A DNA stretch of 64,000 nt from Syntrophobacterales bacterium (GTDB lineage Bacteria > Desulfobacterota > Syntrophobacteria > Syntrophobacterales > Thermodesulforhabdaceae). Positions within the stretch are counted from its first letter, which is position 1, and each line of letters starts with the position of its first letter. Positions 10,239-52,553 of the stretch are shown piece after piece. The DNA lies in contig JAOACS010000021.1 in assembly GCA_026417655.1 (NCBI GenBank), positions 186,001 through 250,000 of the forward strand. Reading direction: 5' to 3'. The position numbers and the translations under genes are program-made. The notes under the pieces were generated by a model. That model saw only the letters and a list, made by a program, of their open reading frames with translations, was not told the DNA's origin and made no database searches.

Positions 10239-10312
10239 CAGCAGAAGCTCTATTGACAATATGATAACTTGCGGAGTAGGTCTAAACATGTTTATAAAAT
10301 TACAATATTCAA

Positions 10313-10320
10313 AAGGAGGA
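10313..10320 (+). promoter_or_regulatory. Ribosome-binding site fixing a GTG start for aspS
   Basis: AAGGAGGA lies 6 bases before GTG 10327, in frame with the AspRS sequence. It decides the start against ATG 10261, which has no comparable site. A TTGACA at 10253-10258 could be a -35 element, but no convincing -10 follows at normal spacing. Confidence 0.8.
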
Positions 10321-10326
10321 AATCAG

Positions 10327-12207
10327 GTGGAGTTTACAGCGAAGAAGGAACTGACCCTCTTGGAAGAGGTGGAATCTACAAGGGAGGAGTTTTTATACCG
10401 ATTTGTGCCCCTAGATACGCTTGGTGATTGGCAAAGAACCCATTATTGTAACGATCTACGTTTTGACCACATTGGCCAAAAGGTATGCCTTATGGGTTGG
10501 GTTCAGAGGCGGCGTGACCACGGAGGATTGATCTTTGTCGACCTTAGGGATAGAGAGGGTATTACCCAATTGGTATTTGATCCAACCTATAATGCCCTTG
10601 CCCACGAACGGGCTCACGGAATACGAAATGAATATGTCATTGCTGTAAAGGGTATCGTTAGAGCCCGCCCAGAGGGGATGATAAATCCAAAGCTTGAGAC
10701 CGGAGAAGTAGAGGTTATCGTGGATGAAATTAAACTTCTTAATGCCTCCAGGACTCCCCCTTTCCTAGTGGAAGATCGTATTCAGGTAAACGAAAATACA
10801 CGACTTAAATATCGATACGTGGACCTAAGGCGTCCCTTAATGACCAAGAACATCCTCACACGCCATAGAGTCATGCAGTTTACACGAAAGTACTTTGCCG
10901 ATAGGGGATTCATAGAAATAGAAACGCCGGTTCTTACCAAGAGCACGCCAGAAGGAGCAAGAGACTATCTTGTCCCAAGCAGAATATACCCAGGAAAATT
11001 CTATTCTCTTCCCCAATCACCTCAGTTGTTTAAGCAGATTCTCATGGTCGCCGGTTTTGACCGTTACATGCAAATAGTTAAATGTTTTCGGGACGAAGAT
11101 CTAAGAGCCGACCGACAACCTGAGTTCACACAGATCGATTTGGAACTTTCTTTTATCCGAGAAGCCGACCTCTATAAACTCATTGAGGACTGGATTAGTG
11201 CCCTATTTAAAACCATTCTAAACATGGAAATTCCTACACCCTTTCGTAGAATCTCCTACGAGGATGCTATAGCCCTCTATGGCACAGATAAACCAGATCT
11301 TCGTTTCGGTATGGAGATTCACGATGTAAGTGAAATAGTTTCGGAATCTGGATTTAACGTATTTAAGCAGGCGATTCAGTCTAGAGGAATGGTTGGTTGT
11401 GTCAAATATGAGGGTGGTGTAAAGTTTTCTAGAAAAGAATTGGACGACTTAATAGCCTTTGCCCAAAGTCTTGGCGCAAAGGGATTAGCCTGGATTAAAA
11501 TCCATTCCTCAGAATGGCAATCTCCTATAACAAAGTTTCTTACCGAAGGGATAAAAAATGCTTTGAGCGAAAAACTCGGGCTTCAGCCCGGAGATATCAT
11601 CTTCTTTGGAGCAGATCAGCCATCTTTGGTGAGGGAGGTTCTCGGAAACTTACGACTCCATCTTGCGCAGAACTACCTCTTTAAAGACAGGCCAGAACTC
11701 AAAAACCGTTACGAGTTCTTGTGGGTAACAGATTTTCCTCTACTCGAATGGAGTCAAGAGGAGAAAAGGTTTGTAGCTGTCCATCATCCATTTACTGCAC
11801 CAAAGGAAGAGGAAGTGGATCTACTTGAGAAAGAACCAGAAAGAGTTCATAGCCGTGCCTACGACCTTGTATTAAATGGAACCGAAATAGGAGGAGGAAG
11901 TATACGAATTCACCGAAAGGATATCCAGGAAAGGGTCTTTCGGGTACTAGGCATTAGCACCGAAGAAGCTAAAGAAAAGTTCGGCTTCCTACTTGAAGCC
12001 CTAGAGTATGGCGCTCCTCCCCATGGAGGTATAGCCTTTGGATTAGACAGACTTCTCATGATAATGACTAACTCTACCTCAATTCGAGATGTTATCGCCT
12101 TTCCGAAAACTCAAAAAGCTACCTGTCCCATGACAGGAGCCCCATCGGAGCCTGAGGTCAATCAGTTGCTTGAATTGTGCATAAAAGTAGAAGCCTCGCA
12201 AAAATGA
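10327..12207 (+). CDS. aspS: Aspartyl-tRNA synthetase (bacterial type)
   Basis: It charges tRNA-Asp (or tRNA-Asp and tRNA-Asn if non-discriminating) with aspartate. The 626-residue protein has an OB-fold anticodon domain beginning with RTHYCNDLR near residue 38, class II motifs 1-3 (ending FGLDRLLMI), the [10 protein letters not shown] segment and the bacterial GAD insertion between motifs 2 and 3. The chosen GTG start follows a strong ribosome-binding site. About 35 residues precede the usual beginning of the family, a small N-terminal extension of unknown meaning. Whether it is discriminating cannot be decided here; gatCAB is not in the window. Confidence 0.93.
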
Positions 12208-12246: not shown

Positions 12247-14073
12247 ATGGCCAAATGGAATCCTAAAAGAAGGCTCCTAGAGCACGAACACTCAATTTTT
12301 TGGCAACATAGGCTTGTGGATGTTGTGAAACCCAATCTCATGGAGGAAATCTTCCCATATGAAGAGGTGCCTCGAATAGACTTTGACCATAAACTTATTC
12401 CTTTAGATCCTCCTGAAGATATGTTTATTACCGATACCACCTTCCGGGACGGTCAACAGGCCAGACCTCCCTATACGGTGCAACAGATCGTAACAATCTT
12501 TGATTTTCTACATAGACTTTCTGGTCCGAAGGGCGTCATACGACAGAGTGAGTTTTTTCTCTACACTAAAAAGGACAAAGAGGCCCTAATAAAATGTTTA
12601 GAAAGAGGATACCGCTATCCAGAAATTACAGGTTGGATCAGAGCGGTAAAGGAAGATCTTGATCTTGTAGTAAAAATGGGTCTAAAGGAGACAGGCATAC
12701 TTACATCGGCCTCTGATTACCATATCTTTCTGAAACTCAAAAAAAATCGTCGTGATGTTATGAATGAGTATTTGGATATTGTAAAGGCAGCATTGGAGAA
12801 GGGTATAATCCCTAGATGCCATTTTGAAGACGTAACTCGAGCGGATATCTACGGATTCTGTATACCCTTTGCGATCGAATTGATGAAGCTTCGGGAGGAA
12901 AGCGGTATAGATATAAAAATTCGACTCTGTGATACACTAGGACTTGGGATCCCCTATCCTGGAGCAGCACTCCCACGAAGCGTGCCGAGATTGGTTAGAG
13001 CCTTTATTGAAGAAGCGGGCGTTCCCGGACATCTACTTGAATGGCATGGTCACAACGACTTTCACAAGGTTGTTGTAAACAGTGTCACAGCCTGGCTTTA
13101 TGGATGCAGTGGGGTAAATGGCACTTTACTTGGTTTCGGAGAACGGACAGGCAATGCTCCTATTGAGGGTCTTATTATGGAATACATTGGTATAAAAGGG
13201 ACAACCGATGGAATTGATACTCTCGCCATTACGGAGGTTGCTGAATATTTCCAGGAAGAGCTTGGCTACCGCATTCCTCCAAACTATCCTTTTGTAGGCA
13301 AGGCTTTTAATGCTACAAGTGCGGGCATTCATGCTGATGGACTTATTAAGGATCCGCAAATATACAACATCTTTGATACAGAGAAGATTCTAGGTCGTCC
13401 CATTAGTGTCATTATTACCGACAAATCGGGAACCGCCGGTGTTGCCTATTGGGTAAATAACCGATTGCAGTTAAAGGGCGAAAAGAGGCTAGATAAACGC
13501 CATCCTGGCATAGTGAAGATACATAAACGGGTTATGGAAGAATACGAGCAAGGACGGAATACTTCCATCTCCGATGAGGAAATGGAAAGATGGGCGAGAC
13601 GGTATCTACCAGAGTATTTCGTAAGCGAATTCGATATGCTCAAACAAAAAGCTCGATCCCTTGCAGCCCACCTCATTGAAGAGGTTGTAGAGAATGAAGC
13701 CATAAAAAGTATGGATCCCTCCCGTCAGGAACTGGTATTACAATCCCTTCTTGAGCTTAACCCATTCATTCAATACGCCTACGTAACGGATCGGGAAGGA
13801 CGCAGAATCACCAGAAATATTACCCACATAGAAGATAAGGCTAAATATGAGAAGGCTCAGGTGGGAGAGGATCTATCCGACCGTCCCTGGTTTATAGAAC
13901 CCATTAAGACTGGTAAGGTCCACGTGACAGATTTTTACACCTCTCGCTACACTGGAGCCTTATGTATTACCGTTTCAGCTCCGATACGAAACGAAAGGGA
14001 TGAGATAGTGGGTGTTCTTGGAGTGGATATAAGGTTTGAAGAACTTGCAAAAATGGAAGAAAAAATTATTTAA
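12247..14073 (+). CDS. Re-citrate/homocitrate-synthase-like enzyme fused to a Cache-type sensor domain
   Basis: The first about 460 of 608 residues form a DRE-TIM metallolyase of the homocitrate/isopropylmalate/Re-citrate synthase group: catalytic TTFRDG at 64-69, metal-binding HGH at 267-269, GFGERTGNA at 296-304 and AGIHADG at 359-365. Such enzymes condense acetyl-CoA with a 2-oxo acid; Re-citrate synthases of clostridia and Desulfobacterota use oxaloacetate. The usual LeuA regulatory domain is absent. Instead residues about 465-598 resemble a PDC/Cache domain (DLSDRPWF at 542-549, then a TVSAPI strand and GVLGVDI at 589-595). No transmembrane segment or signal peptide exists, so the Cache part is cytoplasmic. 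Re-citrate synthase is my preferred reading, given pycB and mdh elsewhere in the window; homocitrate synthase remains possible. Confidence 0.75.
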   Translation: MAKWNPKRRLLEHEHSIFWQHRLVDVVKPNLMEEIFPYEEVPRIDFDHKLIPLDPPEDMFITDTTFRDGQQARPPYTVQQIVTIFDFLHRLSGPKGVIRQSEFFLYTKKDKEALIKCLERGYRYPEITGWIRAVKEDLDLVVKMGLKETGILTSASDYHIFLKLKKNRRDVMNEYLDIVKAALEKGIIPRCHFEDVTRADIYGFCIPFAIELMKLREESGIDIKIRLCDTLGLGIPYPGAALPRSVPRLVRAFIEEAGVPGHLLEWHGHNDFHKVVVNSVTAWLYGCSGVNGTLLGFGERTGNAPIEGLIMEYIGIKGTTDGIDTLAITEVAEYFQEELGYRIPPNYPFVGKAFNATSAGIHADGLIKDPQIYNIFDTEKILGRPISVIITDKSGTAGVAYWVNNRLQLKGEKRLDKRHPGIVKIHKRVMEEYEQGRNTSISDEEMERWARRYLPEYFVSEFDMLKQKARSLAAHLIEEVVENEAIKSMDPSRQELVLQSLLELNPFIQYAYVTDREGRRITRNITHIEDKAKYEKAQVGEDLSDRPWFIEPIKTGKVHVTDFYTSRYTGALCITVSAPIRNERDEIVGVLGVDIRFEELAKMEEKII

Positions 14074-50543: not shown

Positions 50544-52553
50544 ATGGCTCGACAACATGGGGAGTTGATCGCAGGACTTCTAGACCGTGATCAGGTAGAA
50601 GTCACTAATCCGATCAAGATTCAGGATTTGACATTTCGAGACGGTCACCAGTCTCTATTTGCTACGAGGGGACGAACGGAAGACTTTATCCCCATAGCGG
50701 AAGATATGGACAAAGTGGGTTTTTACTCCATGGAAGTTTGGGGCGGTGCAACCTTCGACACAATGCACCGATTCCTTGCTGAAGATCCATGGGAACGTAT
50801 TAGAACCTTAAAGAAATACATAAAAAATACCCCCTTTTCCATGCTTCTTCGAGGACAAAATCTTGTAGGTTATAGAAATTATCCTGACGATGTCGCAGAG
50901 GCTTTTGTGGAAAGAGCCTGCATAAACGGTATTGATATCTTCAGAGTATTTGATGCCCTAAACGACTTTAGGAACTTTGAAACGGTTGTTAAGATAATCA
51001 AGAAATTTGGAAAGCACTTCCAGGGGACCATTTGTTATTCTCTCACTGAACCTAGGATGGGAGGCCCGGTCTATAACCTCGAGTATTATATCAATAAAGC
51101 GAAAGAGCTCGAGGACATGGGTGCAGACACAATCTGTATAAAAGACATGGCAGGTCTCATAGCTCCATACGACGCCTATGAACTGGTCAAAGCTCTTAAG
51201 GAGGTTACAAAGCTTCCCATTCATCTCCACAGCCATTTCACCTCTGGTATGGCCGATATGTCCCTTTTGAAAGCCATTGAAGCTGGCGTTGACATTGTAG
51301 ATACGTGTCTATCTCCTTGGGCCTATAGAACATCCCATCCAGCCGTCGAACCCCTTGTTGTTACGCTACGAGGCACAAATCGAGATCCAGGCTTTGATCT
51401 TAAGCTCCTTGCCAAGTGTAGTGAATATCTCGAGAAGATCTCCCCCAAATATAAACATCTACTCGATGACCGTATATCCATTATAGATATCAATGTCCTG
51501 CTACATCAGACTCCTGGCGGTATGTTATCAAACCTTGTCAATCAGCTCCGAGAGATGGACGCTCTTGACAAATTGGATGAAGTTTTCAAACAACTTCCCA
51601 TTGTCCGCCGAGAACTTGGTCAGGTTCCCCTAGTAACTCCAACGAGCCAGATAGTTGGTATTCAAACTGTAAACAATGTCCTGTTCGACACTCCCGACGA
51701 GCGCTATAAAATGATAACAGCTCAAGTAAAGGATCTTTGCTACGGACTTTATGGAAAAACTCCCGTTCCAATAGATCCAGAGGTTCAAAAGAAGGCACTC
51801 AAAGGCTATCCTAGGGGAGAAACTCCTATAGATTGTCGTCCTGCAGATATCCTTGAACCTGAGCTAGAAAAGGCTAAAAAGGAAGTTGAAGGATTGGCCA
51901 AAGACATCGACGATGTGCTTATATACGCCCTATTTCCAACAACGGGAAAACGTTTCCTAAAGTGGAAATATGGGCTTGAACCGATACCTGATGAAGTAAA
52001 GCCTAAGACATTGGAAGACGTTAAGAGGGAAGAAGAACTAATTAAAAAAGCAAAGGCGGGGTTGCTCGTGGAAAAGGTAAAAAAAGAAACACCAGCAAAG
52101 GGTCCTGGAATCAGAAAGTTTAATGTGTTCGTTGATGGTGAGTATTTTGAAGTCGAGGTGGAAGAAATAGGTGGGGTTCCAACTGCGATTACTGTAGCTC
52201 AACAGGTAGCCCCATCGGTGCCTCCTCCTAAGCCTGTGACACCAGTAGCACCACCACCTCCTCCGCCCCCTCCACCTCCACCATCTGCTCCAGCTCCTAC
52301 GCCATCGGCTCCACCGAAACCCAAAGCTCCAACAACGTCGGGTGTTGCGATTGAAGCTCCTATGCCTGGCATGATTGTTCGATATGAGGTCGAAGAGGGA
52401 GCTCAGGTTAAAGAGGGAGATGTTATTCTCGTACTCGAAGCGATGAAGATGGAAAATACTATTACAACACCAATTTCGGGAACGGTGAAAAAGATTAACT
52501 TCAAGCCCGGAGATAGTGTCCAAAAGGGTGATGTGCTAGCAGTTATCGAATAA
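50544..52553 (+). CDS. pycB: Pyruvate carboxylase subunit B / oxaloacetate decarboxylase alpha-type protein with biotin domain
   Basis: A carboxyltransferase plus biotinyl carrier of 669 residues. The first part has the DRE-TIM fold start FRDGHQSLFATRGR near 33-46 and the HLHSHFTSGM zinc site near 229-238. A Pro/Ala-rich linker (about 560-595) leads to a lipoyl-like domain with EAMKM, whose Lys635 is the biotin site 35 residues from the C-terminus. It transfers CO2 between carboxybiotin and pyruvate/oxaloacetate. No biotin carboxylase (pycA) and no OadB sodium pump are in the window. A perfect hairpin and mdh follow. Confidence 0.9.
   Translation: MARQHGELIAGLLDRDQVEVTNPIKIQDLTFRDGHQSLFATRGRTEDFIPIAEDMDKVGFYSMEVWGGATFDTMHRFLAEDPWERIRTLKKYIKNTPFSMLLRGQNLVGYRNYPDDVAEAFVERACINGIDIFRVFDALNDFRNFETVVKIIKKFGKHFQGTICYSLTEPRMGGPVYNLEYYINKAKELEDMGADTICIKDMAGLIAPYDAYELVKALKEVTKLPIHLHSHFTSGMADMSLLKAIEAGVDIVDTCLSPWAYRTSHPAVEPLVVTLRGTNRDPGFDLKLLAKCSEYLEKISPKYKHLLDDRISIIDINVLLHQTPGGMLSNLVNQLREMDALDKLDEVFKQLPIVRRELGQVPLVTPTSQIVGIQTVNNVLFDTPDERYKMITAQVKDLCYGLYGKTPVPIDPEVQKKALKGYPRGETPIDCRPADILEPELEKAKKEVEGLAKDIDDVLIYALFPTTGKRFLKWKYGLEPIPDEVKPKTLEDVKREEELIKKAKAGLLVEKVKKETPAKGPGIRKFNVFVDGEYFEVEVEEIGGVPTAITVAQQVAPSVPPPKPVTPVAPPPPPPPPPPPSAPAPTPSAPPKPKAPTTSGVAIEAPMPGMIVRYEVEEGAQVKEGDVILVLEAMKMENTITTPISGTVKKINFKPGDSVQKGDVLAVIE

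Follow-up and report, generated by a model that had tools for sequence, protein, structure and literature searches.

Many strict anaerobes, sulfate reducers and syntrophs among them, make citrate and glutamate by way of Re-citrate synthase. The enzyme of Syntrophus aciditrophicus is said to be a homotetramer with a subunit of ~73 kDa, showing activity only with acetyl-CoA and oxaloacetate. To our knowledge, the C-terminal domain of this enzyme has been neither identified nor tested. Its production in E. coli, purification and assay were reportedly the work of Kim et al. (2013, J Bacteriol 195:1689). Re-citrate synthases are listed in the Firmicutes, Chloroflexota and Thermodesulfobacteriota, with Kim 2013 cited for Syntrophus (PMC12016533). 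Our literature search on allosteric regulation of Re-citrate synthase found nothing. The clostridial enzymes (Clostridium kluyveri type) share their catalytic core with the protein described here and end at approximately residue 458. LeuA, CimA and the archaeal homocitrate synthase (SaHCS, 6ktq) likewise combine a barrel with an extra C-terminal regulatory domain, but theirs is a LeuA_dimer or RAM domain, unrelated to the Cache domain of the window protein.

Cache domains are extracellular in 78% of cases and occur in proteins with signalling outputs; the families Diacid_rec and YkuI_C are mainly intracellular (Upadhyay 2016, PMC4822843). The C-terminal domain of the EAL protein YkuI (2bas), a Cache domain of the latter family, matches the tail of the window protein in both sequence and fold; in YkuI it sits on a cyclic-di-GMP signalling domain, whereas in the window protein it sits on a metabolic enzyme. 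The best fold match of the tail is the sensor domain of Bacillus subtilis KinD (4jgo, 4jgp), the extracytoplasmic double Cache of a histidine kinase, which binds pyruvate (PMC8534201).

The window, by which we mean the whole 64,000-nucleotide stretch of Syntrophobacterales DNA that was analyzed, contains the following features at this locus:

10261..12207, + strand: aspS (aspartyl-tRNA synthetase), directly upstream of the synthase; a neighbor outside the proposed mechanism
12247..14073, + strand: putative Re-citrate synthase with a C-terminal Cache domain; single intact open reading frame of 608 aa, 69.9 kDa
12427..13245, + strand: HMGL-like (DRE-TIM) catalytic barrel, residues 61–333 (Pfam PF00682, 105 bits against a cut-off of 29; fold match to 6ktq, Z 33.5)
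12436..12453, + strand: TTFRDG motif, residues 64–69 (F66, R67, D68 and G69 invariant in 65 relatives)
13045..13053, + strand: HGH metal-binding motif, residues 267–269 (invariant in 65 relatives)
13132..13158, + strand: GFGERTGNA motif, residues 296–304 (G298, E299, R300, G302 and N303 invariant in 65 relatives)
13246..13626, + strand: post-barrel helical region, residues 334–460; Cache-less relatives stop near its end, at residue ~458
13627..14067, + strand: Cache (PDC) domain, residues 461–607, a long N-terminal helix (461–481) followed by an alpha/beta fold (Pfam PF22673 and PF02743 above cut-off; AlphaFold2 model and PDB match)

The first-pass annotation of this DNA had read the open reading frame as a DRE-TIM synthase with a complete catalytic half, and both the three motifs and the coordinates proved exact. 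An AlphaFold2 model of the full 608-aa protein reached a mean pLDDT of 90, and its top fold match was the homocitrate synthase 6ktq, with other family members also matched. As the structural search with the full-length model returned barrel matches only, the tail was folded alone. A fragment of a membrane receptor or a frameshift artefact was ruled out, since the full-length reading frame is conserved in well over 100 genomes.

A 629-aa ortholog of 71.8 kDa shares 63% identity with the window protein across residues 1–607 and keeps every pocket residue. Judging in part by the mass of the enzyme, we take this ortholog to be, almost surely, the Re-citrate synthase of S. aciditrophicus (SYN_02536): with a Strep-tag its mass would be ~72.9 kDa, in agreement with that reported for the tagged subunit. 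The S. aciditrophicus enzyme would thus almost surely share the architecture of the window protein and, unlike it, has already been purified and assayed. Wherever a complete member was found in the order to which a Syntrophaceae genome belongs, it extends to the Cache domain. Through this almost certainly identified ortholog, we strongly infer that the catalytic half is a Re-citrate synthase, forming citrate from acetyl-CoA and oxaloacetate.

The genomic context points in the same direction. No match to Si-citrate synthase (PF00285) was found in the organism's own genome (2.30 Mb, 96% complete) in a search that was positive in 13 of 14 control genomes, and this genome encodes an aconitase and, elsewhere and as separate genes, two LeuA-type synthases and one CimA-like synthase. 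Re- and Si-citrate synthase are largely mutually exclusive across the phylum: among 297 genomes, 119 have only the Re enzyme, 119 only the Si enzyme, 27 both and 32 neither (odds ratio 0.06, with weak PF00285 matches excluded at a cut that we chose and kinship between genomes uncorrected). The 27 genomes in which a Cache-bearing Re enzyme occurs together with a strong Si-citrate synthase match (e.g., G135, G162, G187, G255, G276, and G296) include several of the same order, and the exclusion is therefore not strict. Of 48 related loci, 12 have TCA genes close to the synthase, in several cases no more than 20 bases away (L033, L035, L044, L061, L062), and these genes represent the oxidative TCA branch. 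They encode aconitase (L033, L035, L061–L063, L081), isocitrate dehydrogenase (L035, L044, L055, L062, L087) and malate dehydrogenase (L042, L061, L062, L087), with fumarate reductase genes also among the neighbors; at L062 the order is synthase, mdh, acn, idh. The absence of an Si enzyme from the genome, the near-exclusive distribution and the TCA operons in relatives narrow the earlier description, a citrate/homocitrate-type synthase, to the Re-citrate synthase type. That the catalytic half is instead a homocitrate, citramalate or isopropylmalate synthase would agree with the fold it has in common with homocitrate synthase and with LEU1_arch and nifV being the top curated matches by score, but these matches fall far under their cut-offs and none of the family-specific cut-offs is reached. 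Given also the distribution, the operons with aconitase, isocitrate dehydrogenase and malate dehydrogenase, and the LeuA and CimA-like genes elsewhere in the genome, we regard such an activity as highly improbable.

Other neighbors were also recorded. Among the 48 related loci, aspS precedes the synthase in 19, with hisS before it in 11 and gaps that are often <100 bases; this hisS-aspS-synthase order is conserved without an obvious reason. Further along the window, at 50544–52553, a 669-aa open reading frame combines a carboxyltransferase barrel with a C-terminal biotinyl motif (EAMKMEN), resembling pyruvate carboxylase subunit B or oxaloacetate decarboxylase alpha, and is a possible source of oxaloacetate.

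The C-terminal ~145 residues had been described as Cache-like on first reading, and this is borne out by profile and fold. Pfam MCP-like_PDC_1 matches residues 497–601 with 63 bits (cut-off 27) and dCache_1 matches residues 478–600 with 55 bits (cut-off 45). Folded alone, residues 456–608 gave a confident AlphaFold2 model (mean pLDDT 89) that carries the hallmark of the Cache superfamily, a long N-terminal helix with the PDC alpha/beta fold, and that matched KinD (Z 16.8), CitA (14.9), Tlp3 (14.5) and DctB (14.1) in the PDB, as well as WalK and DcuS. The fold prediction that had been proposed as a check on this assignment thus returned a Cache fold and not a LeuA-type domain. LeuA_dimer had no Pfam match in the 608-aa protein, and a LeuA-type or RAM regulatory domain was rejected as the identity of the C-terminal part for want of a Pfam match. 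The highest hydropathy over 19 residues is 0.89, and therefore no membrane helix is present by this measure anywhere in the protein, in agreement with the cytosolic setting that had been claimed. The setting that is typical of Cache domains, though not defining for them, is thereby absent: there are no flanking membrane helices, and the output is an enzyme instead of a signaling domain.

The first-pass annotation was mistaken in one respect, namely that the Cache domain had replaced the usual C-terminal regulatory domain. The closest Cache-less relatives stop at approximately residue 458 without any C-terminal domain, and the Cache domain is therefore an add-on and not a substitute for a LeuA-type domain. 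Of 40 members from the phylum to which a Bacillota genome belongs, almost all stop at ~458, and one (G643) has a Cache domain. These Bacillota relatives are 54–65% identical. Of the 76 catalytic positions without variation among Cache-bearing forms, the Cache-less ones keep 70, with no fixed differences, so that the two forms appear to be one enzyme that may or may not carry the add-on, with the Cache domain dispensable for catalysis. Judging from these relatives, the Cache domain is an optional addition to the Re-citrate synthase core.

The fusion itself is real and is not peculiar to one genome: the relatives that share it number well over 100 and come from about ten phyla. In the organism's own phylum the Cache-bearing form is the rule, found in most of the 146 genomes that encode the family, and four are clearly Cache-less (G016, G034, G212, G294). 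The Cache-bearing form is likewise the rule in the phylum that a Nitrospirae genome represents, and both forms occur in the one represented by a Spirochaetes genome; further Cache-bearing loci were found in Lentisphaerota, Elusimicrobiota, Omnitrophota, Auribacterota, Margulisiibacteriota, and Fibrobacteres. Distances in the Cache and catalytic domains correlate (r = 0.71, with none of 2000 permutations as high), and the two halves have therefore been inherited together. On the tree, which is unrooted because the sole outgroup is too distant, the presence of the Cache domain requires 4–6 changes, and a single gain or loss is compatible with the data (AU p 0.28). Two genomes of the Spirochaetes phylum encode both forms, G798 (C1:2222487-2224244 and C1:22661-24019) and G834 (C83:29318-31075 and C117:47352-48728), and offer natural pairs for a comparison of regulation. 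The Cache-less family is present in triplicate in four genomes from the phylum of locus L088 (G505, G602, G624, G645), where the third copy matches over ~310 residues only, with 43–47% identity.

Within the Cache domain, the predicted ligand pocket and nearby conserved residues lie at the following positions, with counts from 65 diverse members:

13882..13893, + strand: pocket residues R546, W548 and F549 (PctA R126, W128 and Y129; KinD R131); R in 56/65, W in 65/65, F in 65/65
13936..13944, + strand: pocket residues Y564 and S566 (PctA Y144 and D146); position 564 aromatic in 63/65 (Y in 52, F in 11), Ser at 566 in 65/65
13960..13971, + strand: L572 (conserved in 65/65) and T575 (conserved in 64/65)
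14026..14028, + strand: pocket residue D594 (PctA D173); 65/65

Identity over the Cache domain averages 41% among these members, yet W548, F549, S566, L572, and D594 do not vary and T575 differs once. The six pocket positions (546, 548, 549, 564, 566, 594) have a mean entropy of 0.29 against 1.92 for the domain, a value as low being reached by 1 in 100,000 random sets of positions from the domain. The predicted pocket is thus the best-conserved part of the Cache tail, although part of this conservation could be structural. Nine of the 65 members, mostly from Spirochaetes and Lentisphaerae (L058, L078, L079, L080, L085, L176, L182, L184, L185), have H, K, S, C, or T in place of R546; most of these also have Ser 577 changed to Ala, and they may bind a different ligand.

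Pocket positions were mapped onto PctA through the HMMER alignment. We take PctA D146 to be one of the residues of the amino-acid motif. PctA R126, W128, Y129, Y144, and D173 are discussed as binding-pocket residues of amino-acid and amine sensors (PMC10104139). From the dCache_1AA motif (PctA Y121, R126, W128, Y144, D146, D173), the positions of R126, W128, Y144, and D173 are kept in the window protein; the motif is incomplete, with the variable E541 (entropy 3.3) at the position of Y121 and the invariant S566 at that of D146. A full amino-acid sensor motif was rejected, as these two positions are missing. KinD R131 aligns with R546 (the chain of the R131A mutant differs exactly there) and KinD also has a Ser at the position of S566, but it lacks the Asp corresponding to the invariant D594. 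By its residues, the predicted pocket resembles the pyruvate-binding Cache of KinD more closely than the amino-acid sensors. Because KinD, a pyruvate binder, shares the Arg and the Ser, our first guess for the ligand is a carboxylate without a required amino group, i.e., a 2-oxo or hydroxy acid.

We propose, with a probability of about 0.62, that the protein is a Re-citrate synthase in which a cytosolic Cache domain at the C-terminus provides allosteric control, with a small carboxylate altering the activity. For the ligand we favor a 2-oxo or 2-hydroxy acid (pyruvate, 2-oxoglutarate, or citrate, for example), which would enter the Cache pocket and be contacted by R546, W548, Y564, S566, and D594. 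By analogy, the resulting change might travel via the long helix 461–481 to the barrel or the oligomer interface and so alter activity; we suggest this path because in LeuA and the archaeal homocitrate synthase the regulatory domain is attached at the corresponding end of the barrel. The conserved predicted pocket is consistent with such a sensor of small carboxylates.

The chief competing idea for the ligand is an amino acid made at the end of the pathway (glutamate, glutamine, arginine, or proline), in classic feedback inhibition like that of leucine on LeuA. The amino-acid receptors Tlp3 and PctA are among the nearest Cache relatives by sequence, R546, W548, Y564, and D594 correspond to four residues of their motif, and the pathway is generally known to serve glutamate synthesis in many anaerobes; with the position of Y121 highly variable and an invariant Ser, as in the pyruvate sensor KinD, at that of D146, we nevertheless consider this ligand unlikely. 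Alternatively, the Cache domain could bind no metabolite and be a degenerate module for structure or oligomerization, or a dock for a partner enzyme. Cache-less orthologs do exist, and PAS and Cache domains are described as often serving dimerization (PMC8694187). As conservation is concentrated at the pocket and not spread evenly over the domain, and as the residues that never vary are shared all the way from Desulfobacterota to Spirochaetes, Lentisphaerae, and Elusimicrobia, a purely structural role seems distinctly unlikely.

Under the preferred reading, an allosteric Cache module, the domain would probably be the cell's control over carbon entry into the citric acid cycle. The broader version, in which an intracellular Cache domain senses a 2-oxo or hydroxy acid and thereby sets oxidative TCA flux in anaerobes of about ten phyla, is tentative, and we give it slightly less than an even chance. 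We found no paper linking Cache domains with Re-citrate synthase, although automatic domain annotation would show both; the texts naming both "Cache domain" and "citrate synthase" were unrelated, as judged by title or abstract. Regulation is directly testable, since E. coli has reportedly served to produce an enzyme almost surely of the same architecture. A conserved ligand pocket within the enzyme would indicate how Re-citrate synthase is regulated. If this holds true, it would be the first metabolic enzyme known to us to be shown under the control of a Cache domain. The role of Cache domains would then extend from proteins with signaling outputs (PMC4822843) to the direct control of a metabolic enzyme.
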